This document shows positions 174 to 62,800 of a DNA stretch of 64,000 nt, piece by piece (the stretch's first letter is position 1; the number at the start of each line of letters is the position of its first letter). A program made the translations under genes and the position numbers. This stretch comes from Closterium sp. NIES-65 (lineage: Eukaryota; Streptophyta; Zygnematophyceae; Desmidiales; Closteriaceae). The stretch is taken from positions 1 through 64,000 of the forward strand of contig CANXME010000389.1 of the NCBI GenBank assembly GCA_948144175.1. Reading direction: 5' to 3'. The notes beneath the pieces were generated by a model. That model searched no databases. It was not told where the DNA came from and worked only from the letters and a program-made list of their open reading frames with translations.

Positions 174-2643
174 TTAGTCCATCACATGCACCCCGCGGAC
201 CTCCACGATCGTCCGATCATAAGCAGCAGCTGCCTCCTCTTCCGCGTCATACAATCCAATCTTAGAAAACAACCGGTTTCCCACGCGGATTGCGGCGATC
301 CATTTCTGCTCCTGCGGGCCCCACTTCACGCCCTTGTAGATGGACGGACAGGATCGCGAGCGGAAGCTGCGGACGAAGGTCTTGCGCAGGTGCAGGTGGA
401 AATCGTCCTTGGTCATTTGCTCTAACTCCAGCTTCTCGGCAGCGGATAGCCCGAAGTTGAGCACTGCTGACGTGCCTCGGAACTTGTAGGCCATCCTGGC
501 ATGGGCGCATACCGAGGGTAAGGAAGGGATAAGGTAGGAGGGAGGGAGGAACGTGTAGGCACACACATGAACACGTGAGGTGCAGGTGGACCGTGGAACC
601 CGCCCTTGGTCAGGTATAGGCACACACATGAACACGTGAGCTTATCAGCTGCAGACGGACCCATACAGAGCACCATCTCCCACACGCCCTTGCCCTTGTT
701 GTGCATCACTCCTGTTAACTCGACTGGTCGACTATTGAGTCGACTCAAAGTCTTCCCAGCTGCAGACGGACCCATACAGAGCACCACCTCCCACACGGCC
801 CTTGTCCTTGTTGTGCATCACTCCTGTTAACTCGCCTGGACGACTATTGAGTCGACTCAAAGTCTTCCCAGCTGCAGACGGACCCATACAGAGCACCACC
901 TCCCACACGCCCTTGTCCTTGTTTTGCATCACTCCTGTTAACTCGCCTGGGAAGCTGAAAACGCACCTGTCGTAGAGGCGTGCGGCCTCGTCTCCCAACA
1001 GCGTCCGTCCTCGGAGAAACGGTTTGGGGCCGATATAGAGAACCATCTCCCACACGCCCTTGTCCTTGTTGTGCATCACTCCCCAGCGGAGCTTGCCCGC
1101 CCACCCCGCCACCAGCTCGCTGCCTGCAAGCAGAGAGCAGAAGACGAAGAAGAAGAAGAAAAAAAAACACAAGACACGGGACGACAATTCATATTGATCA
1201 CAAGTAGCGGACACGCACACACACCATCAGGACAAAGACCTAGATGAACGGATGGTATCCTAACGGACAGAGCGCCCAAGTAAACAAGAATTTCGTATAG
1301 ATTGTTTAAAACAGTTTTAGACATGTTACCTGAAGGCAACTGGGTTGCAGCGACGATGGAAACCGACTTGGCGGATGCTCCTCCTGGGAAGGACAGAGAA
1401 AGGGGGGTGAGAATAAGTAGAAGTAACAAACAGGTTAACCATAATACTTGTGTTTCGTTATCATAACGAAAAGAAAGGGAGGCTAAGGGTTGCGAAGGAA
1501 AACGATAAAGGACGGCGTGAAGGGGGAAGGGGAGGGAGGGGGGCGGAGGGGGAAGAGGGGGGAAAAGAGATATTGCGATAACTGAACCATGTGGGTGATA
1601 GGGAGGGCAGCTGGGAAAGGAGAAGCCAAACAAACTAGACCATAAGTCACAACAGCTTCGTCGCACGCAACCTTCCATCTCGGCGACTCGCGACAGGATC
1701 ACCGCGTCGCGCAGCCCCTCGAGGTCCATGAGCGTCTCGACTTTGATACACCCGCCGAAGATCATCGCGTTGGTGATCGCACGGTCGCCGTCGCGTCGCA
1801 GCAGCGCGCGATCGAACGGCCGCAGCGGCCACCTCCTCCGTCTTGCTCCGCTTGATCTTCCGCGTGATCCCCCCCATGTTCACCTGCGCCACCCATCCGC
1901 CATAGTCTTCGTACCAGCTCACGCCGATGTAATTCGAACTCCATCCTTTACGGAAGCTTAGATTAAAGTTGTCCTTTTTTATAATGGCGAGGAACTCGCG
2001 GTCGGAGAGAGCGTCTAGGGCTCGTTTCTCGGCGAGCGTGAGACCGAGATTGAGCGTCTCGGCGTTGCCGTGAACCTTGTAGGCGAACCTGCCGTGGATC
2101 GAAACGAAATAAACAACGGGATGCAGAGGCGAGAATATAAAGAGGAGAACGGTGAATGACGGTTTCGACGCGTGGAGGGACGGCAGAATACCACATGAGA
2201 GATAGAGTGCAGCAATAACTGTCGCGGTGGAATATCTAGTGCTAATGAGAATACAAGAATTGCCGCACTTGTCATAGAGCGACGCCGCCTCCTCTTGCGT
2301 CGGACGAACGCCCAGCACAACGGTCTTGCCGCGCGACGCGTACTTGACGAGCCAGCCGCGCACATGCTTCTGCACTCCCTTGTACTTGAGGCTCTGGTCG
2401 TCGCGGTCGAATAGTCTCTCGCGCGTGCCTTGCCGGCTGAAGGAAAAAATATACGAACAGAAAATAATAGTTGATATTAAAAATGAATGAAATCCGCGAA
2501 CAGCTACACCGGCATATGCCAGCAGGAGTCGACAAGAGCTGATGGAAAGGTGTGAGAATTTCTAGCGAGGCGAATTTTTACCTCCCACCGAGCTTTGGCA
2601 ATGGCTCCTCGGGAAGGCTCCACCCGTATGGTCCCCCTCGCAT
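174..2643 (-). CDS. AP2-domain protein with four AP2-like units, six exons
   Basis: Probable DNA-binding nuclear protein of the AP2 superfamily. Exons on the minus strand: 2643-2582 (ATG, MRGGPYGWSLPEE), 2436-2269, 2088-1672, 1383-1330, 1123-967 and 495-174 (TAA). All junctions are GT-AG and phase-compatible. Four AP2-like units are visible: YKGVQKHVRGWLVKY to LYDKFAYKVHG; YIGVSWYEDYGGWVAQV to a unit ending FDRA; WGVMHNKDKGVWEMVL to LYDRMAYKFRG; and YKGVKWGPQEQKWIAAI to AAYDR. The YKG, W..., LYD/AAYDR and AYKxxG hallmarks are those of AP2-type domains. Exon 3 needs one base removed near 1816-1822 to join the second AP2 unit to FDRALLRRDGD and IFGGC. The 3' end is uncertain: in-frame coding-like sequence (LNHAQVTVTEVPIKG) lies beyond the TAA and could be a further exon. 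Land-plant AP2/ANT proteins usually have two AP2 domains. Family assignment is firm; orthology is not. Confidence 0.72.
735..748. repeat. Palindromic spacer 1
   Basis: TTGAGTCGACTCAA, a perfect 14 bp palindrome, lies exactly between the first and second exon-5 copies. Confidence 0.9.
847..860. repeat. Palindromic spacer 2
   Basis: TTGAGTCGACTCAA, identical to the palindrome at 735-748, lies between the second and third exon-5 copies. Confidence 0.9.
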
Positions 2644-7100: not shown

Positions 7101-10100
7101 TGGTCGCGCACAGCGCCGCATCACACTGCCCTCCAGCTCTGCGATGATTTCAAGCTGCTGCGGCAGGGGGAGAACCTCCAGTGCCTGAAGGGGTAGGGAG
7201 CAGTGAGGGAGAAGGAGAGGGCTGAAATGACTAGTCGCAGTACTGATAGCTCACACACCGCATCACACCGCGTCACACCGCATCACATAGCATAGCATCA
7301 CACTGCCTTCTAGCTCTGCGATGATCTCCAGCTGCTGCGGAAGAGGGAGCACCTCCAGTGCCTGTGGATATGGTATGGGGAACAGCAAGGGGAAGGAAGA
7401 AGATCAGAAACACACTGCTTGCACACACATACACCCCATCACACTGCCCTCTAGCTCGGGCACCCCTACAATCGACAACTCTCAAATGTCAATTACACAT
7501 CCGCATCCCCAGAACCAGCACACATCCTTCCCTCTCCTCCTTTTTTCCCCCTTATGTTAATTGAGAATTCTCAAAAAACATACGCTCCTCCTTTTTTCCC
7601 CCTTCTCCCCTCCACCTTTGCCTCTCTTTCCCTCAACTCGTTCCCCTTCCCTCCCCACCTCTCCCTCTCCTTACACCCCTCTCCCACCTCTCACCTTCTG
7701 AATGATCCGGCACCCACACAACTGCAGCCCCAGCGCCGGCACATGCCCCTTCAGGCTCCACATTCAGCCCCTCAGCACCGCATCAAATCGCATCACACCA
7801 CCACCTCTCACCTTCTGAATGACCCGGCAGCCATACATCTGCAGCCCCAGCGCCAGCACGTGCCCCTTGAGCTCCGCTGCCAGTGCAGCCCTGTGCGAGT
7901 CCAGGCCATGCTCGAAGAACTGCGGAGAAGAGAGAAGAGGGGTTTGAGTGGGGGCAGAGGGAAAGAGGGGTGAGGGGAAGAGGGATTGCGATATTACACT
8001 CAAAGCCAGCACACGCCCCTTTAGCTCCGCTGCTAGGCGAGTTTTGAGTCGACTCAAAAAGCGCCAGCACATGCCCCTTTAGCTCCGCTGCCAGTGCCGG
8101 CCTGTGCGAGTCCAGGCCATGCTCGAAGAACTGAGAGGGAGGGAAGGAGGACGAACAAAGCGCGGAGAGAAGAGGGGGAAGGACGAGGGGTGGGGAGGAT
8201 GAGAGAGTGCAGACAGACATGCACGAGCAGCAGCACCTCACAGAACCTCACAGAACCCAAGCCGCTTCTCTCCTGCTCTCCTTATCTGCTCTGCATTTAA
8301 CCCACTCCCCCCCCCCTCCCCTTCCTTCCCTTTTCCAACCTCCTCTGACCCCACACACGCACCGTCTGAATCACGTAGTTCACAAAGACGTCTGTCATGA
8401 GGGAGAGAGCGCGAGGCAGCACCTCACAGAGCACCGACTCTTTCACTCCTTCTCTCCTTCACTGCTCCCCCCTTACTCCCTCTCCCGCCCTCTATCCCCC
8501 CTTGACCCCACACACGCACCTTCTGAATCACGTAGTTCCCGAACACGTCCGTCATAAGGGAGAGAGCGCGCGGCAGCACCTCACAGAACACGAGCTCCTT
8601 CTCTGCATCCGTGGCCATCTCGAGCTTCTGCTGGATGAACCGCGACCCGTGCTGGTCAGCGCTGCGAGTGAGGGAAATAGGAAAACAACCGAAGCATGAA
8701 AAAGCAGAAACGGGTTGGTAACGCTCTGGCTAGCCCCTGCTGTGGGGGGGCCCACCTGTCCTCTCTTGACAGCGCCTCACAGAACACAAGCTCCTTCTCT
8801 TCTTCTCTGCATCCGTGGCCATCTCGAGCTTCTGCTGGATGAACCGACTGCCATGCTGGTCCGCACTGCACGTGAAGCAGACACAGATGAGCAAAAATAA
8901 AAGAGAGACACGAATAGCATGGGATTGGGGAAAGAGGTGGGTGAAGTTCTCTGCTGTGGCGGCACCTCACAGAACACGAGCTCTTTCTCTGCATCCATCC
9001 GCGGCCTCTGCTCCGCTCCTTCTCTCCTTCTCTGCATCCGTGGCCATCTCGAGCTTCTGCTGAATGAACCGCGACCCGTGCTGGTCCGCACTGGGAGACT
9101 GCAAGAGGGGAAAGAGAGACGAGAGAAGTGCTGAGAAGAGAAGAATGGGATAGGGAAAAGAGGTTACAGAGCACCTCTGAGCACCACTCAGCAGCATGTG
9201 AGCACCACTCAGCAGCATGTGAGCACCAGTCAGCAGCATGTGAGCACCAGTCAGCAGCATGTGAGCACCAGTCAGCAGCATGTGAGCACCAGTCAGCAGC
9301 ATGTGAGCACCACTCAGCAGCATGTGAGCACCAGTCAGCAGCATGTGAGCACCAGTCAGCAGCATGTGAGCACCAGTCAGCAGCATGTGAGCACCAGTCA
9401 GCAGCATGTGAGCACCAGTCAGCAGCATGTGCGCACCACACACCAACACACCTGAACTCCACCACGTGCCCTGCAATGTCACACAGCGAGCACTCCAACA
9501 CTCACCAATCACCAGCATCCCTGAACACCGCTCCGCACCCCTCAACACACCTGAACTCCACCACGTGCCCTGCAATGTCACACAGCTCATATCGCCTCGT
9601 CTTGTTTGCCTTAAACTCCTCCAAGAAACTCCCCGCTCCTCCTCCCCCTCCCCCTCCCCCTCCAGCCCCCCCTCCCCCTCCTCCTCCGCCTCCTCCTCCC
9701 CCTCCCCCACCACCGTTACCGCTGCCTCTGTTCCCTCCCCCGCCTCCTCCCCCTCCGCCTCCCCCTCCGCCCCCCCCTCCGCCACCCATCCTTTCAGATT
9801 CAGCCAGGTGAGAAGCATGGTGGTGGTGCTGCTGCTGATGCTGCTGATGCTGATGGTGGTGATGGTGCTGATGTTGATGCATATTGTGGCCTCTTCCCCC
9901 ACCCCCTCCCCCAGGTGAGCCCCTCAGTCCCCCACCTGCTCCCCCCACACCGCTCATTCCGCCCATGGCGTAACCTCCCCCTTTTCCTCCGCCCCCTCCG
10001 CCTCCCCCTGCCCCTCCCCCCATCATGCTTCCCCCGCCCCCAACCCCAGCCGGCCCCATCCCTCCCCCCAGCCCTCCTTCAGCCAATAGCATCGATTCGT

Positions 10101-29637: not shown

Positions 29638-31632
29638 AGGGGATTGTACTGAGGAGGTGGGTGTATCGATGTGGGATAGAATTAAGGTGGGTGAACTGAG
29701 GGGGGATTGAGGGATAATTTATTGAGAGATAGTATATTGGAAAACATTTGATTGAGGAGTGGTTGACTGAGGTGAGTTGTGGCGTGGTGTTGTGTAGAAT
29801 GGTGTGGTATGGTTGTGCTGTGGCAGGAGGTGAAGCAGCAGCAGCAGCAGCGGCTTCAACCGTAGTGGCTGGAAAGAAGTCAATCTGGTGCTCTGTGCTG
29901 CTGGATTTTCTGCTTGACTGTCGTTTTGGCTTATTCTAACTTGGGGGCGTGTCATTGGCTTCCCCCCACCATCCCTTGCTTCCTCCTCTCCCCACATTCC
30001 CCTTGCACTTCCTACATTACACACTCCCTTGCCATCCGGTTACTGTTTATGTCCTTCCTCCTTTCTCCGTCCATACCTCCCTCTTGGCCCCTGTGGATTC
30101 TTTCTTCTTTTCGTTTGCCTCACTGCTACTTTGATGGGTACTCAAAGCTGTAGTTTGCTTGCCCTAATAGAGTTATTTTTACTCCATAAGCTTACTTGTG
30201 TGAATGTAATCATTTCTTTCTGCTCTCAAGTGGTGAGAGGTTGAAGGAAAGAGAGTCAACCAGGTGAAAATGTATTGGACAGAAAGCTGTGTTGGAATAT
30301 ACTATGGTATCATTTTGAATAAATTGGCAAGTTATTTGTTGCACTTCAGGGTCTCGTTTACATTCCCCCGAATTTTCCTAAACAGGACTACACTACGAAC
30401 ATGTGAGTCAATTGAGACCGCTGCCTGGGGTCAACCTCATTCGCCGAGATTCAGAAGGAAGCGGCCACGGCAACGGACGATCAAGATTATATGAGGTGAA
30501 AGTTCAGATTCTTTCCGCCGCTGATTCGTGGTCCGTAAAGGAGCGGCCCCTAGGAAGCTCCACCTGACCAAACACCCAGCTCTCGGGTTCTACAGGTCAG
30601 CTTCGCGGATTGCTACAAGTCAGCAGATTCTACTCCAGCCCAGCATGAAGAGTGGAGCAGCGCAAGGCATGGAGCAGAATAAGCAGCCAATTGCAGCAGG
30701 GGGAGAAGCGGCAGACCTTCGGGGCGCGCAACACACCGAACCTACCTGTTTCATTTCGATGAAGCCAACGAAGGTCGTGTTCAGCGTTCGTCAGAAGAGT
30801 TCACTTTAATGCGGTGGTGTCAGATGTGATGGTTTTGAGAATGGTGCATCACTTCTAAAGGTAGCGCTCATTCAGGGTTCCTAGCAGATAGCAAAAGCTT
30901 GCGAAACACCCTCAAACCTCCTCCACCACTTCACACGTCCTGTGACTTGGATGCGTAAACATCACTCCTCTCCCCGCGTCTGTCCCCGCTCCACCCTTTC
31001 CCTTTCCCTTTCCCCCTTCCCCCACTTTCCTGCCCGTCCCCTTCTTCCGTACCTCCGCTTCCCCATACCTTTCACCCGCCTTTCCCGCCAGGTCTTCCCT
31101 CCACCACCACCCCCCGACGCGTTTCTCCCGCGTCCCCTGCCCAGACATCATCCTGGGCAAATCCTCAAGACGAGCGCCACCTCCCCCGTCAGCGGTACCC
31201 TTCGTTCCGCTTCCCCCGGCCCAACTACACGCCTTAGCAAAGGTGTATCTTATCTTGTTGGTTCCAAACCAACGCAATTCTACATAACCGTCTTCCCTCA
31301 CTCACGATCTCGATACTCTCGCATCTCTCTAACTATAGTTCTGAAGACAGTAACCAAGTCGTGAGACGCTCCTGAATGACGGCTGCTGTGCGGATGCGAC
31401 GATAGCGGCCGATTTGGATTAACCGCCGAAAACCGCAGTCCACACCGCTCTTTACAGAAAATGTGTATTTATTAGTTGTTTTAGGTCAAAGCATTCAGTG
31501 CTTTTCTTGGTTAGTGGTTCGTAGCGTGAAACCTGCATCAGGAAACTGACAAATGTTCGTAGCGTAATTAAACGTTATATTGCCTTTTAGTGCAAAGTCT
31601 TTTGAGACATCTCAAAAGCGAAGCTCTAAGAA
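29638..31632. other. Intergenic: giant-gene 3' flank and promoter/5' UTR of the next gene
   Basis: No supported coding region. An AATAAA hexamer near 30316 could serve as the poly(A) signal of the giant gene. Pyrimidine-rich sequence spans about 30970-31240. A palindrome (31599-31618) lies 15 bp before the next ATG. Confidence 0.45.
31599..31618. repeat. Palindromic spacer 6, in a 5' UTR
   Basis: CTTTTGAGA (31599-31607) and TCTCAAAAG (31610-31618) around CA. It lies just upstream of the ATG at 31633. The octamer gaagctct occurs twice immediately after it. Confidence 0.85.
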
Positions 31633-34240: not shown

Positions 34241-34424
34241 TGAGCTCAAGTGTTGACATGTGGTAGTACGTTCTTGTCTGTATTAAGGACTGAGGCGCTT
34301 TTTGAGGCGCCTAATAAGTGGGGCGAGGGGGGAAGAAGCTGGCGAAATCAGAATCAGCAGACGGCCGCCTGTGATGAGCTCAAGTGATGACATGTGGTAG
34401 TACGTTCTTGTCTGTATTAAGGAC
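34184..34424 (+). repeat. 107 bp tandem duplication spanning the stop codon, with palindromic spacer
   Basis: Copy 1 (34184-34290) includes the C-terminal codons (KVGRGGKKLAKSESADGRL) and stop. Copy 2 (34319-34424) repeats it with few changes. The 28 bp spacer contains AGGCGC/GCGCCT inverted arms and tttttgaggcgcct, reminiscent of the palindromic spacers elsewhere. Confidence 0.9.
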
Positions 34425-35004: not shown

Positions 35005-38000
35005 TCAAGAATGTTCCTTCAGAAACCACTTTGACTCTCCCCTCCCTGTGTCTGTAGCCCTTATTTCTGCCACTGCCTCTAGAGCTCGTCTCAACGCCGC
35101 TACATCTGACACTGAACCTGCCCCGAACCTCGCTGCACACTGCCGGACGATTTCCGAAGCTGTCAAACCGGCCTCTCCCAAAGTTGTACTGGATGCCGCC
35201 GAGCCTAACAATGCCGAGCCTGTGGCTAGGCCTGGTGCCGAACCTGGTTCCTGGAACAATAACACAAGCTTCTGCTGTAGACTCAGACTGGAAGCAGCAC
35301 CCTGCATTACTCCTGCTGCCGAACCTGCTTCCGGGCCTGAATCTGAACCTCTTCCTGCCAAACCTATACCAAGACCATTTGACCGAGCCCCTAGCCCAAT
35401 GCCTCTCCCAACTATCATCATAATACCACTCCCATCACCACCACCACCACTACCACCACCAGCAGCAATGCTGCCACTACTACCATCCCCTCCTCCTCCT
35501 CTTGCTATAGATTGCACCATACCTTGCCTCTGCCGCAGCCTTTGCACCAGCTCACTAGAGGACAAAACAGTGCCGCCCGTGATCCCTGCGCTCACCCCTC
35601 CCCCATCCCCTCGTCCACTCCCGAACCTGCTGCTAGCGTTGGTGCTCGCCGAACCAAACCTCCTCCGCCCCCCCCTGGCTGGAACACCAGCCTGGCCAGA
35701 CCTGCCGGTCCAGGTAGGTTCGGAAACGTCACTGGAGGCTCGGTCGCGCTGTGATTGGCGGAGAGCTGCTTCTGCTCGTGCTGCCACCGCCGCTGCTTCA
35801 CAATCCATCCGAATCCGGTCGGCTGACGCCAGCCGTTCGATCGTATCCTGATCCAACGCAGCCTGCACACCGTTGGATTCAAAGAGAGATCTGAGAATCT
35901 TAGCCTCATCTCGTTCCCCGTTACTCGTACTACCATTCTGCCTTGAATTCCTGCTCCCTGTATTCCCCGTATTCCTCCTGCTCCCTGTACTCCCCAGCAT
36001 GCCTTGATGGTTGCCACTGCCTAGCTGGGTCCCATTACCTTCCCTCACTTCCTCCACACACTCTTCCTCCTTCACACTCACTGACCCTTCAACTCCTCCC
36101 CCACCTCCTCCTCTCATTGCTTCCTGCGTCCCTCCCCCTCCCCCTCCCGCCATCACCATTTTCACACCGGGTAGACCCGCCAGCACATCCGCATTGTCCA
36201 ATCGCAAGCTGACATCTGTCCCCATCCCACCCCCCCTCCCACTCCCTCCCCCACCGTCCCTCTCCCTTCCCCTCCCCTTCCGCTTTCCCCTACCCTCCTC
36301 TGCCTCCTGACCTCCTCCCTCCTCCCCCTCCTCCTCTTCTTCTAAAGTAAACAAGTCTGTTAAATCCTTGGACTTGAAAAGCCGCTTCTGCTTTGGATCC
36401 CTAAGCACGCGGTTGGAAAGCAGCTGCTTCGACAGCTGGCGGTGAAAAACCTTCTCCTCTATAGTCCCCCTCGTTACAAGCCTGTAGATGATCACTTCCC
36501 TCTTCTGCCCTATGCGCCATGCCCTCTCCCGAGCCTGCAAGGAGAAATGAGAAGATAATGAATAAATAATAATTATATATATAAAGGATCGTGCACCTGT
36601 TCTAAAATTCCCCAAAAAATTGCTTACAACACATGAGGAGGACAAGAGAAGTGCGACGATACTGCACCGCACAACACCGCAACCAAGAGCAGCTCACCTG
36701 CAAGTCCGTCGAGGGGTTCCAGTCAGGATCAAATATCACGACCCGATTGGCCCCCGTGAGATTTGTTCCCAATCCGCCCACCCTAGTGGTCAGCAAGAAG
36801 ACAAACACGCCGCCCTCCCCGCTGTTGAACTCGTCGATCAGCGCCGCCCGCAGCCCGGGCGGCGTGCTGCCGTCCATTCGTCTGTATCCAAAGTTACAGT
36901 TGAGCACGAGGGATTCGACTATATCCAGCATCTGCTGCGTCTGACAGAAAACCAGCGCCCTGTGCCCTTCAGCTTTCCACACATGGAGTATCTGTGGTGT
37001 TAAGAGGGAGACAGCAGGACGAAGAGTAAGGGGAAGACAGGGGTAAGAACGGAACGGAAGAAGATAAGCTGTGGTTGAGCACGAGGGATTCGACTATAAG
37101 GTGACTTTTGAGTTGACTCAAAAGTCACCTCGACTACATCCAATCCAGCATCTGCTGCGTCTGGCAGAAAACTGAAGATCTGTGGCCCTCAGTTTTCCAC
37201 ACCTAAATTGGTCAACTCAACCTAAAAGTAGCATCACTTACCTTATCCAGCACTTGCAGCTTGGAGCTTCGGTCGGGGTTCCCAAAATCAGGGTCACCCT
37301 TTCTCGAGTTCCCACCTCTGCTTCCCTCCCCTCCCTCCTCCTCCACCACTGCCGCCCGCCACTTGGCCCACTGGCCCCCCTCTCTAGGATCCACCACCAC
37401 ATCCCTCACTCCCTTCCTCACCCCTCCTCCCTCACTACCAATCACACCCTCGCAATCTCCCTCCCCCCTCCTCCCTCGCTCTCTCTCACCCCGCCTCCTC
37501 TCCCTTCTCCTCCTCCCCCCCCTCCACTTCTCCCTCCTCCTTCACCCCCTCTCGATCCTCCTCTTCCTTACTCGCACCTCCCCCTTCCCCCCCCCCCTGC
37601 CCCTCCTCCTGCCCCTCCCAGCACTTCCCTTTCATCCACATCTAACGCCAATAAATCCGGGTGATTGCAGATTTTCCTCAGCACATCGATCCCATACAAG
37701 CTGTTTCGATACCGCTCCAGAATCTGCCGCATCTCCTCGCTCTGCAGAAACGCGCGGTACAGCGTTCGTTGGAATCTAGTGATAGGCACCAGCAGCACGC
37801 GTTCCGTCTTTTCTGGCAATTGAATGTCAACGTCCGCCTTGACTCTCCGGAGCAGGTATGGAAGGATGACGTCTCGAAGCACAACGGCACACTTGTAAGC
37901 CGTGGCGACCTGCAGTTGGGGAAAGTGGGGAGAAAAGACATGAAGTCACGACAGCAGGAGCCCTCGCTCCGTCTTTTCTGGCAATTGAATGTCAGCGTCC

Positions 38001-41000: not shown

Positions 41001-44000
41001 TGCATTCTCTGTAACAAAGCATCCACCCTTTCTCCCTCCTCCTCGCCGCCCTCCTCTCTCCCCTCATCCTCTCCCTCACACTCCACCTCATCCTCCTCTT
41101 CATCCTCTTCCTCCTCCTCCTTCCCCTCATCCCACTCGGACTCTTCCGTTTCCTCTCCTGACTCCCATTCCTCCTCTTCCTTTCCCCTTCCCCTCTTCCC
41201 CCTCTTCGCCTTCTTCCCCTTCTTCTTCTTCCTTCCTTTCCTCCCACCTCCCCCTCTCCCCTCTTCCTCTCCCCCCCCCTCCTCCTCCTCCTCCGCCTCC
41301 TCCCCATCCGCCTCTCCAATTCCCCCAGAGTCATGCAAAATCACCGGATTCAGTTCCGGACACCAGATCCGAACCTCCCTCTGCCACTGCCGAAGCAGCG
41401 TGACGGGGCAGACCAGCAGGCTTGGGCGGTACAGCCCCGAACGTAGCAGCGAGGCTAGGAACGCAGCTACCTGCACAGTCTTTCCCAGACCCATTTCGTC
41501 CCCTAGAATCCCCCCTACCTCCTGACAATGCAACTCCCACAACCACTTAACCCCCGTCCTTTGATACTCAAACAGTTTATTATACACTGAACCTGGTATT
41601 CGTAGCCCCCCCTCTAGAATCACATCATCACTATCAACATCAGTATCAACATCATCATCTACAACATCACCATCATCATCATCAGCATCCACATCAGCAT
41701 CATCAGCATCCATGTCAGCATCATCAGCATCCACATCAGAATCATCCACATCAGCATCCCAGCTCTCCATCTTCCCTTCTCCTCCCCCACCCTCCACCCC
41801 ATCCACACCCACCTCCACCATCCTATCCCCCTTCCCTTCTCTCCACGCCTTACCAGGAAGCGGTCTCCTCACAACCCTCCTCCGCTTCCTCCTCTCCCCG
41901 CCACCTCCTTCCCCCCCTCCCCTCTGCCTCCCTCCTAATATCTTCGCAAACTCTTTCAAAGGCTCCGGGACCTTAGGGACCTCATCCGCCCCTAGAAGCT
42001 TAGTCTGCCTCTTCCCCTGCCTCTCCCCCTCCCCTCGCCCTAACCCCACCCCTTCTCCCTCTCCCCTACCTCCTCCTCTGCTCTCTATACCCCCATGTTC
42101 GTTCTCCTCTCCTTCCCTCTCTCCCTCCCTCTCGTCCCTGCCCTCCATTCCCCCACCCCTGCTGCTTCCTTCCCCAAGCTGTGTCTTTTGGGTGGGCCCT
42201 GACTGAACGGCCTTGTCAAAGCCCTTGAGCTGTGCGAAAGGAGTGATGAGACCCAAACGAATGAGCCTATCCCGCTCCTGAAGTAAGGGATCGGGATGTC
42301 AGGGGGGAAAGGGGGATGGGAAGAGGGAGGGGGGGTTGAGATGGAAAAGCAGGAAATTGAACGGCCTTGTCAAACCCCTTGAGCTGTGCAAAAGGCGTGA
42401 TAAGACCCAGGCGAATGAGCCGATCCCGCTCCTGAAGCACGGAATTGAGATGAGATGCAAGGGTTGGGAGGGAGGCAATGCACGCGATAAGGAAAGTAGG
42501 TGTCAAAAGGAAAAGAAGCAGGGGGGGGGGGGGGTAGGGATGGCACTAGGTGAATAGTCTGTATCGCCCTTACTTCGGCTAATATTGAAATAACAGCAAC
42601 TTGCATACCATATGACATACCGTTTCCACGAATCCAGTTGCAGCAGCACCATCCAGCGCCGAATCAAAATCATCCACGTCATCCATCAGCATTGTAGCCT
42701 CCACCTTCCCCTTCCCCTTCCCTTTCCTCTTCCCCTCATCCACCCTCGCACCCTCCCCCTCCCCTCTTCCACTCTCGCCACTTCTCCACTCTCCACCAAT
42801 CTGCGCCTTACCCTTGCCCTTCCCTTTCCCCACAACCCTTCCACCTTCCCGTCCCCCATCCAAAACCCGACCCCTTCCTTCTCCCTTTCCTCCTCTACCT
42901 CCTCTCCCCTCTCCCTCTCCGCCACCAGCCAGCCTTCCCCCAGGCCCAGCCTCCCCCAGTCGAGCCTCCCCCATCTGAGCCTCCCCCAGCTGAGCCTGCA
43001 GCTGCCTGCGCAGTTTCAGGAGGCTCTTCACGCGCTCCTCTGTCAGCGCCAGCTGGAGGTTCCTAGCGGTACTGTCTGCCTGTGAGATCTTGCCAGTCCC
43101 GGTCGCCTGTAGGTTTAGGCTCCTTGCTGTGCCGTCCGCCTGGCTGCCAGATATTTTGAGTGCGACACGGTCGCGATCCCCTTCCACAATAGTAGCAATA
43201 TCAGCACCCTTCTTCTCTTCACCCGCACCATCACCTTCATCCTTGCTCGTGTCCTTTATCTTTTCCTTCTTCTCCCTCATTTCATCCTCATCCCTTGCAG
43301 CCTGCCCACTGCTGCTGTCAGAAATTCCAAATCCGGTAACCTTCGCGCTCTTCCCCTTCGCCGCTCCTCCTGCTCCAGACCCCCTCCCAAGCCCTCTCCC
43401 ACGCCCTCTCCCAATCCCTCTCCCGCTCGCGCCTTTACCCGTGTCCGCTCCTCCGCTTTCCCCACCTTTCAGCGCCATGAGCGCATCCCCTAGAGCGTTC
43501 AACTCCCTCTCCACTGCCCGTAGCTGCTGCTGCACCCTACCCGCCTGCACGGGTGGCATAATTTCGTTTCGAGACGTCTCAAAACTCTCCACTGCCTGCA
43601 GCTTCTGCCGCACCCTACCCGCCTGCACAGCTGGCATGATTTTCCTACCGTGTGACGCTTCACTGGTGAGTATGGATGCTACAACGGCCGAATTTGACGG
43701 CTGTACGGTCAATTTTGACGCCTGAGCAGTCAAACCTGACAGCTGAATGGTAGGATCAGACGACTGAACGGCCAATTCTGCTGCCTGAACGGTCGAATTT
43801 GACGGCTGAATGGCTGAATCTGACGGCTGAACAGGTGATTCTGCCGCCTTAACTATCGAATCTGAGGGCTGAACAAGCGGTTCGGATGCCTGAACGATGG
43901 ATTGGACGGGAAAAACGGAGTGATCAAGAGCAGCATCCATCGGTGTACTATCATCTCCCTCTTGATCAATTTGTTCCGCCTTCAACGTCTGCTGCGGCTG

Positions 44001-48650: not shown

Positions 48651-51600
48651 TTATGCAGCAACTGGGGCAGCATTTAGGGCCTTGAGGGGGTTGGTGATAA
48701 CCGCATCAATCAAGCCATACTCCTTGGCCTCAGTTGCACTCATGAAGAAATCGCGATCCGTATCCTGGTAGAGCAAGGGCAAGAGAGCATGAGAGAAAAA
48801 GCAGGGGCAAGGGAGAATGGGAACTTCGAGATATATTCAAACATTGGCATTAATCAAGATGCCTGGATCACAAATCAACGACAGTATGCTATCGTTCGAG
48901 GCACCAATCTCAGCTGCACAGTCTTCAAATATGGTCGAATAATTACCACTCAGTAATCGTTCAGATTGGTCTCAGCACAGCACAGTATGAGAGCACCTCG
49001 AGGTCTCAATGCCCTCACTGCTCACCTTCCATGCTCTGACAAGCCCTCACTGCTCGCCTTCATGCTCTGACATGCCCTCACCTTCATGCTCTGACATGCC
49101 CTCACTGCTCACCTCATCACCTGTACGATCCTCTCACCTGGACGATCTGGTCATAGGATTGACCGGTGTGGTACGCCAAGTAACCGTTCAGGTTCGCCTT
49201 GTGATGCAGAATCTCGTTAGCCTGAATCTCAATGTCTGTCTGCTGTCCCTGTGCTCCTCCCAGCGGCTGATGGATCATAATACGGCTGTTGGGCAGGCTG
49301 TAGCGCTTGCCTGGTAACACGAGTGTGGTGGGGGGGAAGGTATGACAACGAGGGTATAAGAGAACATAATACGACTGTTGGGCAGGCTGTAGCGCTTGCC
49401 TGGGATAACGAGGGAAAGGAGAGGAGAGAGCGAATGGATTTGGGTGGGGGGGATGGGTGGAAAGAATTTGGCCGCGTATGCCCATGTGATCGCACTGACG
49501 ACAAGTAATTAAAGAGCAACAACGAGAGGCAATGGGTGGAGTGCTAACATACATGCGGCTCCTCAGTCGAAACAGGCCACAGGTGGCAGTTCCAAGGAGG
49601 CATAAGAGATCAGCTCAGAATAGACCAACACACCTTTTGTTCCTGCTGACAGGAGGAAGGCTCCCATACTGCACAAGAAGGACGGTACGCAAGGCACCCA
49701 GACAACAAAACACAGAGTGGAAGGGAAAGGGTGAGGAAAAAAAACGAGGCAAGGGTACGAGCGGGCAAGCATGCCTCTCTGGAACAATGCTGACCTGGCA
49801 GCAAGACCGACAGACGCAGAACTGACACACATGCACCCAACTCACACGCCACTTCCCCTCCCTCCGCTCCTCCCCCCCTCCACCCCCCACAGTGCGCCTT
49901 ATGCGTGCACCATATTCACAAAAATGCTTCCATATCTTTAAAGGGCATGAGTGGAGGGAGCTGGCAAATATGCCACTCTCTGACACAATGCTGACCTGGC
50001 AGCAAGGCCGACACACACGGTGCTGACGTCAGGCCGGATGTGGCGCATGGTGTCAAAGATGGCCATGCCTGGGAGAGGGGGAGAACCGAGGACGGGGGGA
50101 GAGGACAGGGGGAGAGGACGGGGGGAGAGGACGGGGGGAGAGGACGGGGGGAGAGGACGGGGGGAGAGGGGAAGATGGGAAGATGGGAGGGTTATGGGAA
50201 GGAGGCACTGGCATCAGTGGCACATGGTGTCAACGATTGCCAGGCTCTGAGTGACGAGGATGGGGGATTGGAGGGGGAAAGGGAGTGGGGGGGAGAAGCA
50301 CGAGAGAGGGGGCTTGGGATGATTGAATGGTGCTGTCGTCACGCCAGATGTGGCGCATGGTGTCAATGGCCATGCCTGGGCGGGGTGTGGAAGGGGGGAA
50401 GGGGAAGGGAGAAGGGGGGAAGGGAAGGAAGAAGGGGGGAAGGGAAGGAAGAAGGGGGGAAGGGAAGGAAGAACGGAAGGGGTGGGAAACGCGGGAGGAA
50501 CGGCGGAGGCACGCGTCAGGCCGGATGTGGCGCATGGTGTCAATGGCCATGCCTCAAGGGAAAAGGAGGGCGGGGCAGGAAATGAGTCTCTCAAATTCGT
50601 TTCGTCTCCCTCCATTCAGTCATCCCTCGCCCCTCCCTCGTATTGGTGCAGCCCTCCCTCCCACTCTCCCCACTCGCCATTCCCCAACCTCCACCCGCCG
50701 TTTCCCAGTCCCCACCGGCCGTTCCCCACTACCCCACTCATCCTAATCCCCGCACTCACCAGCAGTAACGGAACCACCAGGCGAGTTGACGTACATGATG
50801 ATGTCCTGCATTCAAAAGGAGGGGGGAGGGGGGGGGAGAGAAGAGGGGTGGATGGGAGGGGAAAGGTGGGGGGGAGAGTGTGAATGAGCAGCCACGGAAC
50901 CACCAGACGAAACTGATGGTGTCCTGCGTTGGTAATGAGATTGGTGGGACGGAGGGAGGGAGCGGCAGGGAGTGGGAGGAGTTAGGGAGAGAAGGGAGAG
51001 CGAAGGGAGCTTTTGAGTCGACTCAAAAGGGAGCGGCAGGGAGTGGGAGGAGTTAGGGAGAGAAGGGAGAGCGAAGGGAGCCACCAGGCGAGTTGACGTA
51101 CATGATGATGTCCTGCGTTGAGGGGGGGGGGGGAGGGGGAGGGGAGAAGGGGGGAAGGGAAGGGTGTGGGGGAGGGGTTGGATGGGGGGGATGGGATGGT
51201 TGCGGCGACGAGAGAGAGAATGGAACCACCAGGCGAGTTGACATACATGATGTCAAGGGAGAACCACACAGGAGCCAGGCAGCACCATTCGAGGGAGGAA
51301 TCGGAGAGTGGGGAGATGGGGAGGTTGTGAGGGGGAGCAAGGGAGCCGAGAGTGGTGCAGCGGAAAAAGTAGGGAAGTAACAGACGAGTTGACGTGTGGA
51401 ATAGCGGGCTTAATTGGAAGGAGGAGGGGAAGAGCCGGGGAGGGTTTGAAGGGGGGGGGGGGGGGGGGGGGGGAGGGGAGGAGAGGAGGAGAGGGGGGGA
51501 TAGGGGGAAAAGGGAGGATGGGGGAGAAGGGGGCGGGGAGGGGGGGAGCGGGGGGGGGAGGGTGAAGGGGCGAGCGAAAACAGGCTTTTGGGAAAGAGCT

Positions 51601-54241: not shown

Positions 54242-54246
54242 AATAT

Positions 54247-54579: not shown

Positions 54580-54606
54580 CTACCCCCCCTCCTAAGGAGG
54601 TCCTCC

Positions 54607-57600: not shown

Positions 57601-58202
57601 CAGCGAGGTAGAACGACCCAGTTACCACTACTTCGCACTGTGCAGCTCCCCGTCGTCCAGTCGATCCGTGGGTTGTACCGTCGCAGCCAATCACGTCCCA
57701 ATAAAATGTCGTGCCCATCCAGTGTCGTCGCGAGCATTTCCTGTGTAAACTCGAAGTTTCCCCCGCAGCGGACTTTTACGCGCTCCACCTTTTCCCGTAT
57801 GGCCAGGGGCGTGCCGTCGACTAAGCGTGCATCTATCTCAGGTAAACATCGGTTAAGCGGTAACTGTAATTTTCGTGCGGTTGCGGTATTAACTAAGCTG
57901 TGGCTTGCTCCTCCGTCAATGAAGATCTTCACTGCTGCTCCCTGTATTTTCCCGTAGATCAGTACCGGGCAATCCGTCGTTGTACCCTCCTTATTCATCC
58001 GAGCCCGATCGATGGCGTGAATCGGTACTGTGACTCGGTGAGGGTCGGTGTGGTTGGGCGAGCAGGCAGTCTCGTCAGTAGTTGGCCCAACTTCTACTGA
58101 CTGCTGGCGTTTCCCTGCCTCTGAGACTCCCTCCCCTGCTCTGCTCCTCGACGCCTCAGCTCCTCTGGACATTCGCTCTTGCGATGGCCCGGCCGGTTGC
58201 AA
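54607..58202 (-). pseudogene. pol: Chromovirus pol (protease-RT-RNase H-integrase-chromodomain), frameshifted
   Basis: Upstream frame 58202-57102: retropepsin motif [11 protein letters not shown] and [10 protein letters not shown], then the start of reverse transcriptase ([31 protein letters not shown]). Near 57118 one base is missing, so that YPIP would continue into [19 protein letters not shown]. The downstream frame continues to 54607 with MPFGLTNAPATFQ, the YLDD active site (VIVYLDDILVYS), RNase H (VTDASDIAIGAVLL), the integrase HHCC finger (H...H...CPTCQ), core D,D,E sequence (TMDFVTGLP; ISDRDTKF), and a chromodomain (VEFLIRWKDRTPTEDNWVP). Pol overlaps the end of gag in another frame, so expression probably used frameshifting. 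The break makes this copy nonfunctional unless it is a sequencing error. Confidence 0.9.
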
Positions 58203-59272
58203 GCAAAGCAGCGCCCTCTAAACGGCGCGGCAGCTGCATTCGCTGCAACGGCATGTACAGTGGCGTGCTCGGTCGGTCCCCGAGGACGATGTCCGTAATA
58301 GGACCCCGGTCTCGGTCGGCGTAGGATATCGATTTTCTCGGCGCGCGCGAGGATCTCGTTGAAATTCGAGAGCCCGCGTAGCATTATCTCGTGCGAGATG
58401 TCCGGCTTCAGCCCTCCGACGTAACGGTCCACCCGCTCTGCCTCGTGCATGTAGCCGACCTGTTCGCAAAGTGCGAGAAACCTGCTGATGTAGTCTTGAA
58501 CTGACCTGAGCTGGCGCCAAGTGCGCAGTTTCTGACGCGCCGAAATCGAGGCCGCGATCGGCTCAAAGCGCGCCCGAAGCCCTGCGCACCACGCATCCCA
58601 CGTGCTGTATTGGGCGGTTTCGCAGAACGAACTCCAGGTAACGGCTGGACCCGAGGGCCCTTCCTCGTGCGACGGTGGCTCGTAGGCGCGCGGCGACGTC
58701 ACAATGACTCGCCACTAGTTCATGGCGGGGCCCCTGAGAAGTGAAACCGCATACCGGATCTTGGCGGCGTCCGACTCGACGTAGTTGGCGTCGAAAAACA
58801 CATTCATCGTGAAGACCCACGATTGAACTGTCGGGCCGCCGCGTTGGCTTGGGTCGAAGCAGGGCGGGCGTTGCGGCTTGAGTGGCATTGGGGCCATCAT
58901 GGCGTTCTCGCCACTTGTCGCCGCAAACTCCACGTGCCGACGGGCTTCTCGGGGCTCCCGTGGGCTTAATGCGCTCCTGTTCCCTCCCATGCCGGGCATC
59001 GGTTGGGCTGCGCCGTCACTGGCTGCGCCTGAGCGCTGTCCCGTGCTGTTGTGTTGCGTTGGTGTGCCAGATGAGATGACGATGGGCTCCTCCGAATGTG
59101 CAGATGCATTGGTTGGTGCATGTGATGTCGTCGGTACGTTCACCGTTGACTGTTGACGGGCGGAGTCACGTTCCGCCGTGAGAGTCGCGATTTGGAGCGC
59201 CGAATCCTCCAATTGACGCACGAGACGATCGAGTTGCTCTTGCGTCAACGTGGCGAGATTGAAATCGGCCAT
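58094..59272 (-). pseudogene. gag: Chromovirus gag with an in-frame stop
   Basis: Starts MADFNLATLTQEQLDRLVRQ (59272) and runs to RGPAMN then TAG at about 58717. The same frame resumes WRVIVTSPRAYEPPSHEEG and continues to a CCHC knuckle [14 protein letters not shown] (C-x2-C-x4-H-x4-C) before its stop near 58094. Gag-type capsid sequence (ARQKLRTWRQLRSVQDYISR) spans the second part. Uninterrupted family-like sequence on both sides argues that the TAG is a point change rather than a domain boundary. Confidence 0.85.
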
Positions 59273-59437
59273 GGCGGGGGTGTCGGGCAAGCTCAGCGAG
59301 AGCCTCGGTCGTGGCCGTGCGTGCTTTCGAGAGAGCACTACGAGCGGCGGTGCTGTGTCGCTGAGAGACGTCTACCCCCCCCAAAAATTGAGATAGTGGG
59401 AAGCGAAGGTGTGGATGCGGTCCGAGATGAGATCGTA

Positions 59438-59451
59438 GGCTCTGAATACCA
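59438..59451 (-). other. Primer-binding site (initiator tRNA-Met-like)
   Basis: The minus strand reads TGGTATTCAGAGCC two bases inside the 5' LTR. The usual initiator-Met site is TGGTATCAGAGCC, so this one has one extra T. Confidence 0.75.
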
Positions 59452-59453
59452 AG

Positions 59454-59786
59454 TGTTACGAGTGCAATTGAGTGAACGAACGAGAATTGCACTGTCGAAG
59501 CAAGCAATACAAATGAGCGAAGGCATGAGCGAAGATTATGTAGCGAAACTACAGTGGTAACGGTAATGGTCGCGCGACGAGCCTGGGACTGAGGTTGGGA
59601 AAGTGTCGAAGCGTAGGTCCGGAGCGCGGGTTACCAGCCGAGCCGTGAGGTCGGGATGCGATGTGCGAAAAGGGCGGGATGATGAATGATGCGATGGTCG
59701 CGAGTGGTAACGGTGCTGACTGAGGTGCTACAGTGATGTACGCGTTGAGCAGGGACGCGAAGTAAGGAAAAGGGAATTTCCTTACA
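59454..59786 (-). repeat. 5' LTR of the chromovirus
   Basis: 333 bp, same length as the other LTR, followed by AATAT (59787-59791). It should hold the element promoter; no TATA box is assigned with confidence. Confidence 0.95.
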
Positions 59787-59869
59787 AATATACACATGAG
59801 ATGTATGTTCAACTAAACAAAATACATTCAAATCCATCATTTACAGAGATAAAATTATCTCATCACACT

Positions 59870-62800
59870 TCATTCCACATCCTTAAAGCTCTTTTTTTCA
59901 TACACACCATCCTTCCCTCTCACCCAGACGTCTCCTCTATGCTCCATCACATCTAAACTCGCGCTATTTCGCACATAACCTCCCTTTCTACCTCTAAAAT
60001 TATGTTCACTCAGAATTTGTTCCTTCCCGCTGTGCCAACCACGCCTCCTTGTCAGAGGACCTTCCTCATGGACGCCCTTATTTTCCGAATGTGCAATCCT
60101 CTTTGAGCCAGCAGTATCCGACCCATGAAAATCTCCTCCATTCCTCTTTTCTTCCCCCACTTTCCCTTCCCAACCTTCCATATCACCTTGCTTCCCTCGT
60201 CTTCCTCCCACCCTCCACTCATCTTGCACCTCCCAATCAGTCAAATCCCCCTCTCTCACCTCCCTCATCTCTCCTCCCACCTTCCATCGTGCCTCCCTCC
60301 CTCTCCTCCCCCTCTCCCATCCATACCCCTCCTCTTCCTCCTGTAAAGCAGTCTTCCCTGCATCAAACTGACCAGATCTACCTCCCCCAGAAGCCTCCAC
60401 CTCCCACCGCCCATTTCTTCTGAACACTCGGTCCATGCTAGTGTCCATTGCTGAATCCGGCACCTCCCTTCCTGTTGCAGCCCTTCCTCCAGATACGGCC
60501 CAATTATCTGCTACAGCCCTTCCTTCTGCTACAGCCCTCTCTCCTGCTACAGCCCTCTCTCCTGCTACAGCCCTACCTTCTGCTACAGTCCTTTTCCCTG
60601 ATACAGCCCTATCGTTCGCCTCAGCCAACTCCCCTACTGCAGCCCTGCCTTCTGCTGCTGTACTTTCTCCTGATACAGCCCTGTTTCCTGCCAGAGCCCT
60701 CTCTCCTGCTTCTTTGGGTCGTGGCGTATCTCTCACTGACAGCGGAGTATGAGCAGCAGGGTAAGCAGGGGCAGTAGGGTAAGCAGGGGCAGCAGGGGAA
60801 GCAGGGGCAGCAGGGGCAGCAGGGAAAGCAGGGACAGCAGGAGAATGAGCAGCAGGGGCAATTGAGGTGTTTGCCATGCTCTCTCTCTTGTCCCGATTGA
60901 CTATGGCAGCAGGCGGAGGAGTGGCAGCAGCAATAGCAGACGCAGCAGGAACAGCAGGAGGAGCAGAGGCAGCAGGGGCAGCAGGAGCAGCAGAGGCAGC
61001 ATGAGGAGCTGGAGCAGCAGCGGCAGCAGGGGCAGCAGGAGCAGCAGAGGCAGCAGGAGGAGCACGGGCAGCAGGAGCAGCAGGGGCAGTTGAGCTGTCT
61101 GCCATGCTCCCTCTCTTGTCCCCAGTGAAAGTGGTGGCAGGCGGAGGGACAACAGGAGCAGGGGTAGCTGTGGCAGCGGTAGCTGCAGCAGGGGCAGTTG
61201 CAGCAGGAGCCGTTGGCGAATGGGCAACTGTAATGGGACCAGAGCCAAAAGACTCTTGAGACGTCTCAAAAGCTGTAGCAGGAGCATGGGCAGCTGTCGT
61301 GCGACCAGAGCCAGAAGCAGCAGAAGCAGCAGAAGCAGCAGCGGCGGCTGAAAGAGCAGAGGCAATTCGAGCCATGGCCATTGCAGCAAAGAGAGCAGTT
61401 GCAGCTGCTGCAACCTCTTTCCCTGTAAACACTGCTACCTCCTTGCTCGATGCTCCTGTTGCTTCCTCCTCTGCTGCCTCTGCTGCCTCTGCTGCCTCCT
61501 TGATCGATGCTGCTTCTGCCTCTGTGGCTTCCTTGCTACCGATTGCAGTATCCACTGTAGCCACGTTACCTGCACCACCAAAACCAGCGGCAGCACCACC
61601 ACCAGCAGCTGCAGCATCACCACCATTTGGGACATCCATGAAATCACCCACTCCTTCCCCCATTGCCCCATCTAGAGAAATCTCCCCTTCTCTTTCTCCA
61701 GATGCCCCCTTTGAGTTAATTCCAACATGTGCTGCTGTTGCTGCTGTTGCTGCTGATGCTGTTGCTGCAGCAGCTGCTCCTGCAGCTGCTGCTTCTGCCG
61801 CGTCTGTTTCTGCTGCTGCTTCTCTCTCTGATTTTGTTGCTGCTGCTAATCCTGCCTCTGCTCCTTCTTCTGCTTCTGCTTCGTCTTCAGCTGCTGCGTT
61901 CTGTTGTGTTGCAGCCGCTGCCCTCTCTTGCTTCTCAGATTCCTTGCTACCGATTGCAGTATCCACTGTGTCATTGTATTCCCTCCCCGACTCTCTCCCT
62001 TCTCCTGATTTCGCATCCTCTTCTCTTCCATCCAAAGTATCTTCCACGCTCCCCTCCTCATTCAACTCTCTCCCCTCATCTAACCGAACTCCCTCCCTTG
62101 ATCCTTCTCCCTCACCCTCTCCCTTCCTTTCTTCTCTCTTCCCTTCTTCTCCCTTCGCTTCTCCCTCACCCACTCCCCTCCCTACTCCCTCACCTTCTCC
62201 CGTCCCTTCTCCCTCACTTTCTCCCTTCTCATCCCCCCCCTTGTACATGTGTGCAGGCGCAGACCTCTCTCCCTCGCCCATCCCCTTGTGTGTGTTTTTA
62301 GGCACCACCAAATCACTCCAAGAACCAGCAACCGCACTGGATGCCTCAGAACCACTGGGTGGAAGAGCCAGGGCAATGTCAGAACCACTACCTGTCGCTG
62401 GCAGCATCAAAGGAGTGCTCGAGCCTGCTGAAGAGCTGATATCTGACGTGGTTTCAGCGGCTGAAGAGCCTGCTCCTGTTACTTCAGTTGCATAGCCTGC
62501 AGCCTCTGCTATACTTTTGCCTGCAGCATCACCTGCTGCATTGACAGCAGCAGCAGCAGCAGCACCACCAGCAGCAGCAGCCACAGCAGCAGCACTAGGA
62601 GCAGAATCACGTGCAGCACCAATTCCACCATTAGCGCCACTAGTAGCATCAGCAACACTACCAGCACTCGCAGCATCAGCAGCAGCACTAGCACTATCAT
62701 CAGCAGCAACAGCAGCACTACCAGCACCAGCAGCAGCACCAGCCACCACTCGTCGAACCGGACCCTCCTCCTCTCCCTCAGATAAGTTATCATCATACCC

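Follow-up and report, generated by a model that had tools for sequence, protein, structure and literature searches.

The nuclear genome of Closterium sp. NIES-65 probably carries a dispersed, stand-alone palindromic micro-insert (P), which in most of the events read lies between direct duplicates of the local sequence (u). The 874-Mb assembly contains 30,327 occurrences of the P core, TTTTGAGNNNNCTCAAAA, including those in tandem arrays, versus four of the reversed control, bearing out genome-wide a claim of frequency far above chance made in an earlier sequence-only reading of the window, i.e., the whole 64-kb stretch analyzed here. The arrangement u-P-u was found in 39 of the 43 events covered on seven contigs and in the window; copies of P number in the tens of thousands, and the duplication around a copy is usually longer than P itself. 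TCGA-centered P numbers 13,080 in the Closterium assembly (control, 0), with four matches across the GTDB genome collection, and P with GAC/GTC arms numbers 4,307 in the assembly (control, 0). The window is Closterium nuclear DNA; the 874-Mb size of the assembly and the position of P within PUF and CSB genes place P-bearing DNA in the nucleus and not in an organelle, and the window also holds an open frame that we take to encode a gypsy-type polyprotein. Insertion of P is non-uniform, since 16 sampled 10-kb regions—mostly satellite and LTR retrotransposon—contained no exact core against the ~5.5 predicted from the genome mean.

Eleven palindromes had been listed in the window, and TTTGAGN4CTCAAA (at most two mismatches) was recovered at ten of these places (735, 847, 7561, 8042, 31599, 34293, 37099, 43566, 51010 and 61256); at the eleventh, 6726, the same arms of P enclose a 30-bp interior. 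The motif occurs 15 times in the window at this threshold, whereas 100 shuffles gave 2.74 on average and never more than 7. The 24-mer GACTTTTGAGTCGACTCAAAAGTC matched at least 18 positions at 11 places, versus none in 30 Markov simulations. Seven of these are listed loci (735, 847, 8042, 31599, 37099, 51010 and 61256), and the other four (22023, 22608, 23445 and 25020) fall within a giant, repetitive coding gene, the near-palindromic repeats of which (22,000-25,500) could represent old copies of P or protein repeats that look similar by chance.

The palindrome was also said to lie between or inside direct copies, and such copies adjoin P at 735/847 (81-83 bp), 43566 (58 bp), 51010 (51-54 bp, identical), 8042 (29 bp), 7561 (19-20 bp), 6726 (10 bp), 37099 (7-9 bp) and, imperfectly, 61256 (53/44 bp). 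Two listed loci stand apart: 31599 lacks a convincing duplication, its flanks matching over 6 bp only, and 34293 is a doubtful member, where the 107-bp duplication adjoining the hairpin may be an ordinary tandem duplication, because the alignment continues through the spacer (133 bp, 88.7%). The PUF and SNF2/CSB genes named at the duplications were confirmed; the AP2 open frame, however, had no Pfam match, and a composite of frames at that locus gave one weak match to an AP2-domain protein (E 3.5e-4). Coordinates are collected in Table 1.

Table 1. P inserts, their duplicates and related features in the window.
Feature	Positions	Strand	Remarks
P insert, first copy (TCGACTATTGAGTCGACTCAAAGTCTTCC)	728..756	.	
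P insert, second copy	840..868	.	same u-P-u-P-u array
Left duplicate u, 82 bp	646..727	.	more copies 757-839, 869-950
54-bp insert, P half-arms TTGACTTTTGAG / CTCAAAAGTCAA	6726..6779	.	30-bp interior
10-bp target duplicate CCTGCAGGAA	6716..6725	.	second copy 6780-6789; from sequence
P insert, center AATT	7554..7584	.	
20-bp target duplicate, identical	7534..7553	.	second copy 7585-7604
P insert, center TCGA	8034..8062	.	
29-bp target duplicate, PUF exon fragment	8005..8033	.	second copy 8063-8091
P, center ACAT	31599..31618	.	just upstream of ATG-started open frame; no convincing duplication
Hairpin spacer, doubtful member	34291..34317	.	between 107-bp duplicates 34184-34290, 34318-34424
P insert, longest arms of window (TAAGGTGACTTTTGAGTTGACTCAAAAGTCACC)	37097..37129	.	
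Target duplicate TCGACTA	37090..37096	.	second copy 37130-37136
Paralogous CSB exon, empty target site	36899..36940	.	
P insert inside coding exon, center ACGT	43565..43584	.	
58-bp target duplicate, 88%	43507..43564	.	second copy 43585-43642
P insert, center TCGA	51011..51027	.	palindrome 51010-51029
54-bp target duplicate, 100%	50957..51010	.	second copy 51028-51081
P insert, center ACGT	61252..61273	.	GCA-rich stretch
Imperfect 53-bp target duplicate	61199..61251	.	second copy 61274-61317, 9-bp gap

The expected enrichment of flanking duplications held against controls: 35 of 39 events carried one versus 8.5% of 600 repeat-masked control positions (C6 and the window), as did 41 of 45 cores versus 17.4% of 500 unmasked positions. 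These control sets replaced an earlier null drawn from the 16 regions above, often satellite DNA, in which 32.6% of positions reached score 10, to be read against 34 of 45 cores at a different score. Four of the 39 events scored below 10, and all four further loci beyond the 39 had a flanking duplication. When abutting duplications were scored in the window, eight of the 11 listed places reached 14-95 and three (6726, 31599 and 37099) reached 3-6, and the 16 other palindromes of the window all stayed at or below 9 (the best being 63822). Moreover, P formed the spacer in four of the six direct duplicates of the window with a 12-45 bp spacer (the doubtful 34293 being a fifth), a count made with minisatellites masked and the repetitive gene left out that stood at 4 of 53 before masking.

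Well-defined duplications (25 of the 39 events; identity of at least 0.90) measured 17-88 bp with a median of 37, and copy length over all events read spanned 7 to ~90 bp; boundaries were not sharp in 14 of the 39 events. The copied sequence was local and different at each place. The view that the palindrome is a property of the process and not of the sequence copied is borne out. We found no strong boundary motif; C was mildly over-represented immediately to the right of u (13 of 25 boundaries). A CTCAAA half-site stood just left of the left copy in two of the 25 sharp cases (8042 in the window and L049), which chance capture of P at a break does not predict.

Taken as a whole, the pattern is explained best—and, we consider, with a fair degree of probability—by a fixed palindromic DNA being joined into breaks with a wide stagger and filled-in overhangs. 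Two nicks, one in each strand and 10-90 nt apart, would produce a break with long overhangs; fill-in of these overhangs would place u on both ends, between which P, drawn as a duplex or hairpin from a shared pool, would be joined, its own ends being trimmed; and (P-u)n arrays would later grow through unequal exchange or repeated events. The length of the target duplication would thus depend on where the nicks happen to fall, as in end-joining repair, and not on a fixed-stagger transposase. Ordinary filler DNA is diverse, so that one unchanging filler would call for a special origin; neither a donor locus nor an enzyme for P was found. Recurrence of one and the same core at 30,327 places excludes template-switch repair leaving a locally made palindromic filler, one of three explanations offered beforehand; the best fit of the three is a tiny insertion element by which the target is duplicated. 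PMC8355091 describes small tandem duplications where the 3' single-stranded ends of a break are complementary.

The structure of the insert bears on how P is joined. With a full length of ~32-38 bp, P is palindromic, perfectly or nearly so (terminal inverted repeats are present), and its outer ends are variable. Across the events read, its middle is constant and its center nearly always symmetric, and the outer arms measure 0-10 bp and are unequal between the two sides; in the window, symmetry was significant for the center and not for the outer arms. Symmetric centers (TCGA, ACGT, GCGC or AATT) were found in 35 of 39 events, and the remaining four (TTGA twice, GTGC and ACAT) are each one transition from a symmetric N-CG-N' center. 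Half-site matches in the events read fell inside P in 63 of 68 instances; the other five comprise two in the 6726 insert, two in the half repeat of L049 and a lone one in the repetitive gene. Junction microhomology over 31 arms averaged 1.03 matching bases versus 0.41 in shuffles, which count one of two directions of ambiguity, giving a chance estimate of ~0.67; the mean was ~0.81 without four imprecise loci, and 33 further arms that did not fit the consensus arm were left out of the count. Microhomology-mediated joining is not claimed, the matching bases not exceeding estimated chance, and for the same reason no particular end-joining pathway is supported.

We hold it improbable that P is instead an ultra-short MITE (a non-autonomous DNA transposon) made up of two terminal inverted repeats and mobilized by a transposase whose target duplications are unusually long. 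Cut-and-paste transposases are known to make short target duplications of fixed length, whereas those around P vary from 17 to 88 bp in the 25 cases above and the ends of the element vary as well, even though inverted repeats, a directly duplicated target and high copy number would all suit a MITE; so would the 80-100% identity of the duplicates in 34 events, which implies both old and recent cases. In the GGTGAC...TCGA subfamily, the commonest, we saw no sizeable class of longer or autonomous relatives sharing the P ends, and 98 P halves (counted, not read) break off versus 4,709 that continue; on these counts, P as the tip of a long transposon was rejected for that subfamily.

The symmetric though variable center, together with outer ends that vary unequally on the two sides, could also be accounted for if a polymerase (reverse-transcriptase- or telomerase-like) filled the staggered ends and then jumped to a template, adding a half-P tag to each, whereupon two identical, self-complementary tags would anneal and be ligated—P being a programmed sticky end. 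Direct repeats of half of P within the insert (L049, L056 and perhaps C6:100101) point the same way. However, these number two or three only, the second, nearly whole P present in L036 fits capture equally well, and CpG decay does not account for the asymmetric centers AATC and TAGA (with its complement TCTA) among the listings. Nor is any template RNA or enzyme for such tagging known, and no Rfam family matched in seven sources. We regard this account as possible but rather unlikely, and likewise doubt, to the same degree, its broader form, a dedicated Closterium break-joining system that gives filled staggered ends the same self-complementary 3' tag from a fixed template. Were such a system real, any two ends could be joined via the tag, the palindrome would be the scar, and thousands of scars would have seeded local duplications and minisatellites in genes.

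A paralogous CSB exon has an empty site at 36915, where both the P insert of 37097-37129 and its duplication are absent; at this one place, the unoccupied paralog (36899) excludes the suggestion of a pre-existing nuclease site that seeds duplication. The same joint absence weighs against P as a pre-existing or earlier-inserted hairpin that stalled replication, with duplications arising later by slippage or unequal exchange. Slippage should, moreover, copy P along with u, but none of the 25 sharp cases showed a whole palindrome on the outer flanks of the two copies outside arrays. Such a course of events seems to us quite improbable, despite the stability of the P hairpin (-18.6 kcal/mol for 38 nt of DNA), the arrays with P in every unit (C6:107990, C6:131439 and C16) and the CTCAAA half-sites that border the left copy on its outside in 2 of 25 loci.

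An assembly or library artefact is hardly conceivable, short, repeated and palindromic as P is. The 43566 insert in a coding exon is kept in three predicted proteins and is common to predicted proteins of NIES-65 and Naga37s-1; duplicate copies have diverged by up to 20%; and parts of the region on contigs C389 and C1233 match at ~100% across P, although both could represent a single locus or stem from a single recent duplication. Searches at the DNA level for empty copies returned only the near-identical C1233 copy, also occupied, and short partial matches. Protein searches for other loci gave no match in one case and a single weak AP2 match in the other, with nothing bearing on P.

An element of this kind would give genes a new way to gain internal repeats and minisatellites. 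Its loci would also document the outcome of staggered breaks thousands of times over in nature, with the marker built in, and break geometry, overhang length and the trimming of ends could then be measured by sequence alone. P is found in a group of algae named as the sisters of land plants in PMC11096116, and PMC10407611 reports more than twofold genome-size variation in the Closterium complex, put down to copy-number variation.

In its overall pattern, P matched no class of mobile DNA with which we compared it. MITEs and other cut-and-paste DNA transposons share with P the inverted repeats, non-coding nature, high copy number and target duplication; unlike them, P has neither a fixed duplication length nor fixed ends, mostly lacks an interior (6726 having 30 bp) and showed no longer relative in the subfamily tested. 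Bacterial REP/BIME sequences, moved by RAYT, resemble P in being short, single-core palindromes scattered over a genome, yet they are bacterial and intergenic, and we know of no long target duplications associated with them. A variable target duplication of the LINE/SINE type is found with P; a constant 3' end, an A-rich or simple tail and 5' truncation are not, as both ends vary and no tail is present in the events read. As regards introner-type splicing, the 43566 insert is retained in the three predicted proteins.

Among the short palindromes known from organelles are the Neurospora PstI palindromes and double-hairpin elements, as well as mitochondrial elements of Lobosphaera, cryptophytes, Fusarium and yeast. 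Like P, the palindromic repeats of Volvox carteri mtDNA and ptDNA (PMC2670323) are tens of bp long, dispersed, nested or in series, and presumed mobile by a mechanism that is unknown. They are, in contrast, located in organelle DNA and are mostly intergenic or intronic—their nuclear copies in Volvox being thought inert (PMC2670323)—whereas P is nuclear and occupies a coding exon. The word 'duplication' is absent from the main text of that paper, and most P inserts read, unlike organelle palindromic repeats, lie between target copies of 7-90 bp.

The variable-length, direct duplication of local sequence around P is that of staggered-break duplications with filler. Small tandem duplications were reportedly traced to staggered-break repair by Vaughn and Bennetzen in 2014. 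A filler without conserved sequence does not describe P, whose core is the same at 30,327 places. As portrayed in parts of PMC8355091, such duplications are, like those around P, direct, local, mostly below 100 bp and linked to long single-stranded ends; those parts describe no fixed filler, whereas the same palindrome occupies 39 of the 43 junctions read in Closterium.

A sequence-only reading had placed a recurrent palindrome with TTTGAG/CTCAAA-type arms, here termed P, at eleven places in the window; nine independent loci stand as members of one P family (735/847 counted once), while a tenth, 34293, is doubtful. When up to two mismatches are allowed, TTTGAGN4CTCAAA is matched 15 times in the window; shuffled sequence gives 2.74 matches on average and never more than 7. 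Ranked against every possible six-base arm (4,096 in all, four-base gap), TTTGAG comes first by exact matches (4) and ninth by one-mismatch matches, with words of CAG-type coding repeats ahead of it. At the two innermost pairs, bases are complementary in 16 of 18 window cases; combining left halves with right halves from other loci lowers this to 9.3. The further claim that the palindrome sits between local direct copies was borne out, with abutting copies at eight of the nine family loci—31599 being the exception. In an abutting-duplication test, eight of the eleven places scored 14–95 (6726, 31599 and 37099 scored 3–6), and 16 other window palindromes scored at most 9. Moreover, an ungapped scan blind to P, which misses 735 and 7561, returned 53 direct-duplicate pairs separated by 12–45 bp, four of them with P. 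With minisatellites masked and the repetitive gene omitted, six spaced pairs were left; the spacer was P in four and 34293 in a fifth, P bases amounting to 278 versus 51,219 unmasked bases. Many other local duplications in the window, several of them exon fragments, often lie 120–220 bp apart and mostly lack P, so local duplication in the Closterium genome is frequent beyond P events. Within the long Ala-rich open frame, several repeats come close to the P consensus.

Positions of P arrays and of other features in the window and assembly (C, assembly contig)
Feature	Position	Description
P array	C6:107990	37-bp period
P array	C6:131439	53-bp period
P array	C10:378176	42-bp period
P array	C16:109897	64-bp period
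P array	C18:9243	63-bp period
P array	C21:1289613	61-bp period
Long P array	G000:C21:1653907-1655371	spacings 67 and 71 bp, at least 22 forward-strand units
Broken P halves	G000:C1858:35962-212674	six, on one strand, ~27-28 kb apart, one interval ~68 kb
Local duplications	window 7684-8591, 33784-34057, 36899-37202, 39438-40457, 42204-42437, 51683-52025	
Perfect inverted repeat	window 4737-4778	18-bp arms, 6-base loop; unrelated to P, without flanking duplication
Minisatellite	window 38145-39364	11-bp unit CACTCACTATC, about 111 copies
Open frame	window 15694-29637 (+)	4,647 residues, repetitive, Ala-rich, many in-frame minisatellites; read as coiled-coil and leucine-rich-repeat-like
Two overlapping open frames	window 54607-58217 (-)	read as a Ty3/gypsy-like polyprotein

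The window (C389:1-64000) belongs to the nuclear genome of Closterium, a green alga, and its CSB-like coding exon is 96–100% identical, over 37–60% of the query, to unnamed proteins from three Closterium strains, NIES-65, NIES-64 and Naga37s-1. A pair of paralogous CSB exons shows P to have been inserted: the one at 36899 has an empty site, GGATTCGACTATATCCAGC, and its derived copy at 37074 carries a 33-bp insert flanked by TCGACTA on either side. No empty allele was found at the same locus as a P insert. At 43566 the insert is in frame and appears in two predicted NIES-65 proteins and one from Naga37s-1, which argues against an assembly artefact; the NIES-64 predicted protein begins downstream of it. 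For two window stretches tested, a near-identical second copy is present on contig C1233.

The expectation of P far above chance genome-wide was confirmed in the assembly (874,075,685 bases, 2,400 contigs), where the 18-mer core occurs 30,327 times versus 4 for the reversed control. The TCGA version accounts for 13,080 copies and a version with GAC/GTC arms for 4,307, both with controls of 0. These counts cover exact copies only, outnumbered in the window by imperfect ones, and they take in tandem arrays, so that independent insertions are fewer. Elsewhere, the TCGA 18-mer occurs four times in the GTDB genome collection, and a P 20-mer has no match in IMG/VR. The distribution of P across the genome is uneven: 16 sampled 10-kb regions, chosen by contig number, held no exact core, versus about 5.5 predicted from the genome mean. 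Four of the 16 were satellite (92–100% tandem repeat); the longest open frames in ten of the other twelve matched LTR-retrotransposon families in six cases (one below the curated cut-off) and nothing in four. The window open frames read as a Ty3/gypsy-like polyprotein likewise contain no P copies.

Flanking duplications were scored at 45 cores from C6 (in search order), picked places on C6, C9, C10, C13, C14 and C21 (ten of those on C21 drawn from the GAC/GTC listing) and nine window places, omitting 6726, which has an interior, and the doubtful 34293. A duplication scoring at least 10 was present at 41 of 45, whereas among 500 control positions from the C6 blocks and the window the rate was 17.4%. 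With the cores merged into 39 events, the anticipated enrichment persisted when tandem arrays were excluded from the controls, though not from the P events (35 of 39 events versus 8.5% of 600 positions), and at a score of 14 (34 of 39 versus 7.0%). Below the threshold of 10 were C6:45542, L047 (outside the window) and window 31600 and 37106, the last with a 7–9 bp duplication that is nevertheless backed by an empty paralog. Four further loci on C16, C13 and C14 (L055–L058) all showed duplications, giving 39 of 43 events over seven contigs and the window, several loci having been picked from listings, not at random. In the 25 of 39 events with definable ends and copies at least 90% identical, duplication length was 17–88 bp (median 37), the maximum being the array at 733, whose alignment extends a few bases into P. 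No strong motif marked the boundaries of these 25; a CTCAAA half-site resembling the right arm of P lies immediately left of the left copy in two (window 8042 and L049). Identity between copies was 80–100% (34 events), which indicates both old and recent cases.

P also repeats in tandem together with neighbouring sequence (see table), and the C6 and C16 arrays read as (P-u)n, u being the copied local sequence. Two P whose centres differ stand in series at C6:104156/104215, between three u copies, implying that one place can be hit twice. The spaced broken halves on C1858 could reflect a tandem repeat with a large unit.

Many TCGA cases have outer arms of the GAGGTGAC...GTCACCTC type, unequal in length left and right; those of locus L036 extend to ACGAGGTGAC...GTCACCTCGT, and other inserts carry other arms. 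Centres in 39 events were TCGA (22), ACGT (7), GCGC (4), AATT (2), TTGA (2), GTGC (1) and ACAT (1). TTGA, GTGC and ACAT are one transition from a symmetric N-CG-N' centre; AATC and TAGA/TCTA, also among the matches listed, are not. Finally, the base after GGTGACTTTTGAGTCGAC is the palindromic T 4,709 times and some other base 98 times, and hence this subfamily includes no sizeable class of longer elements sharing P ends; the 2% of other continuations can be point mutation.

Variation in duplication length and ends, the lack of a strong target motif and the constant middle make end-joining, rather than a transposase-like process, the most likely origin of P insertions: a widely staggered break would be filled in and its ends then joined around P. 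PMC8355091 describes small tandem duplications at breaks whose single-stranded 3' ends are complementary. Unlike in ordinary end-joining, the filler is one and the same palindrome. It may be captured at the break as a P duplex, or else a half-P tag may be added to each end, after which the self-complementary tags anneal. Half-unit direct repeats (L049, L056, perhaps C6:100101) favour tag addition; capture would account just as well for the additional, nearly complete P in L036. No enzyme or donor for P was found.

The open-access full-text matches listed included no published description of a P-like element, subscription literature being mostly outside that scope. The organelle palindromes of Volvox, described in PMC2670323, whose main text lacks the word "duplication", come nearest in kind to P, but they lie mainly in organelle DNA, unlike the nuclear P of Closterium.
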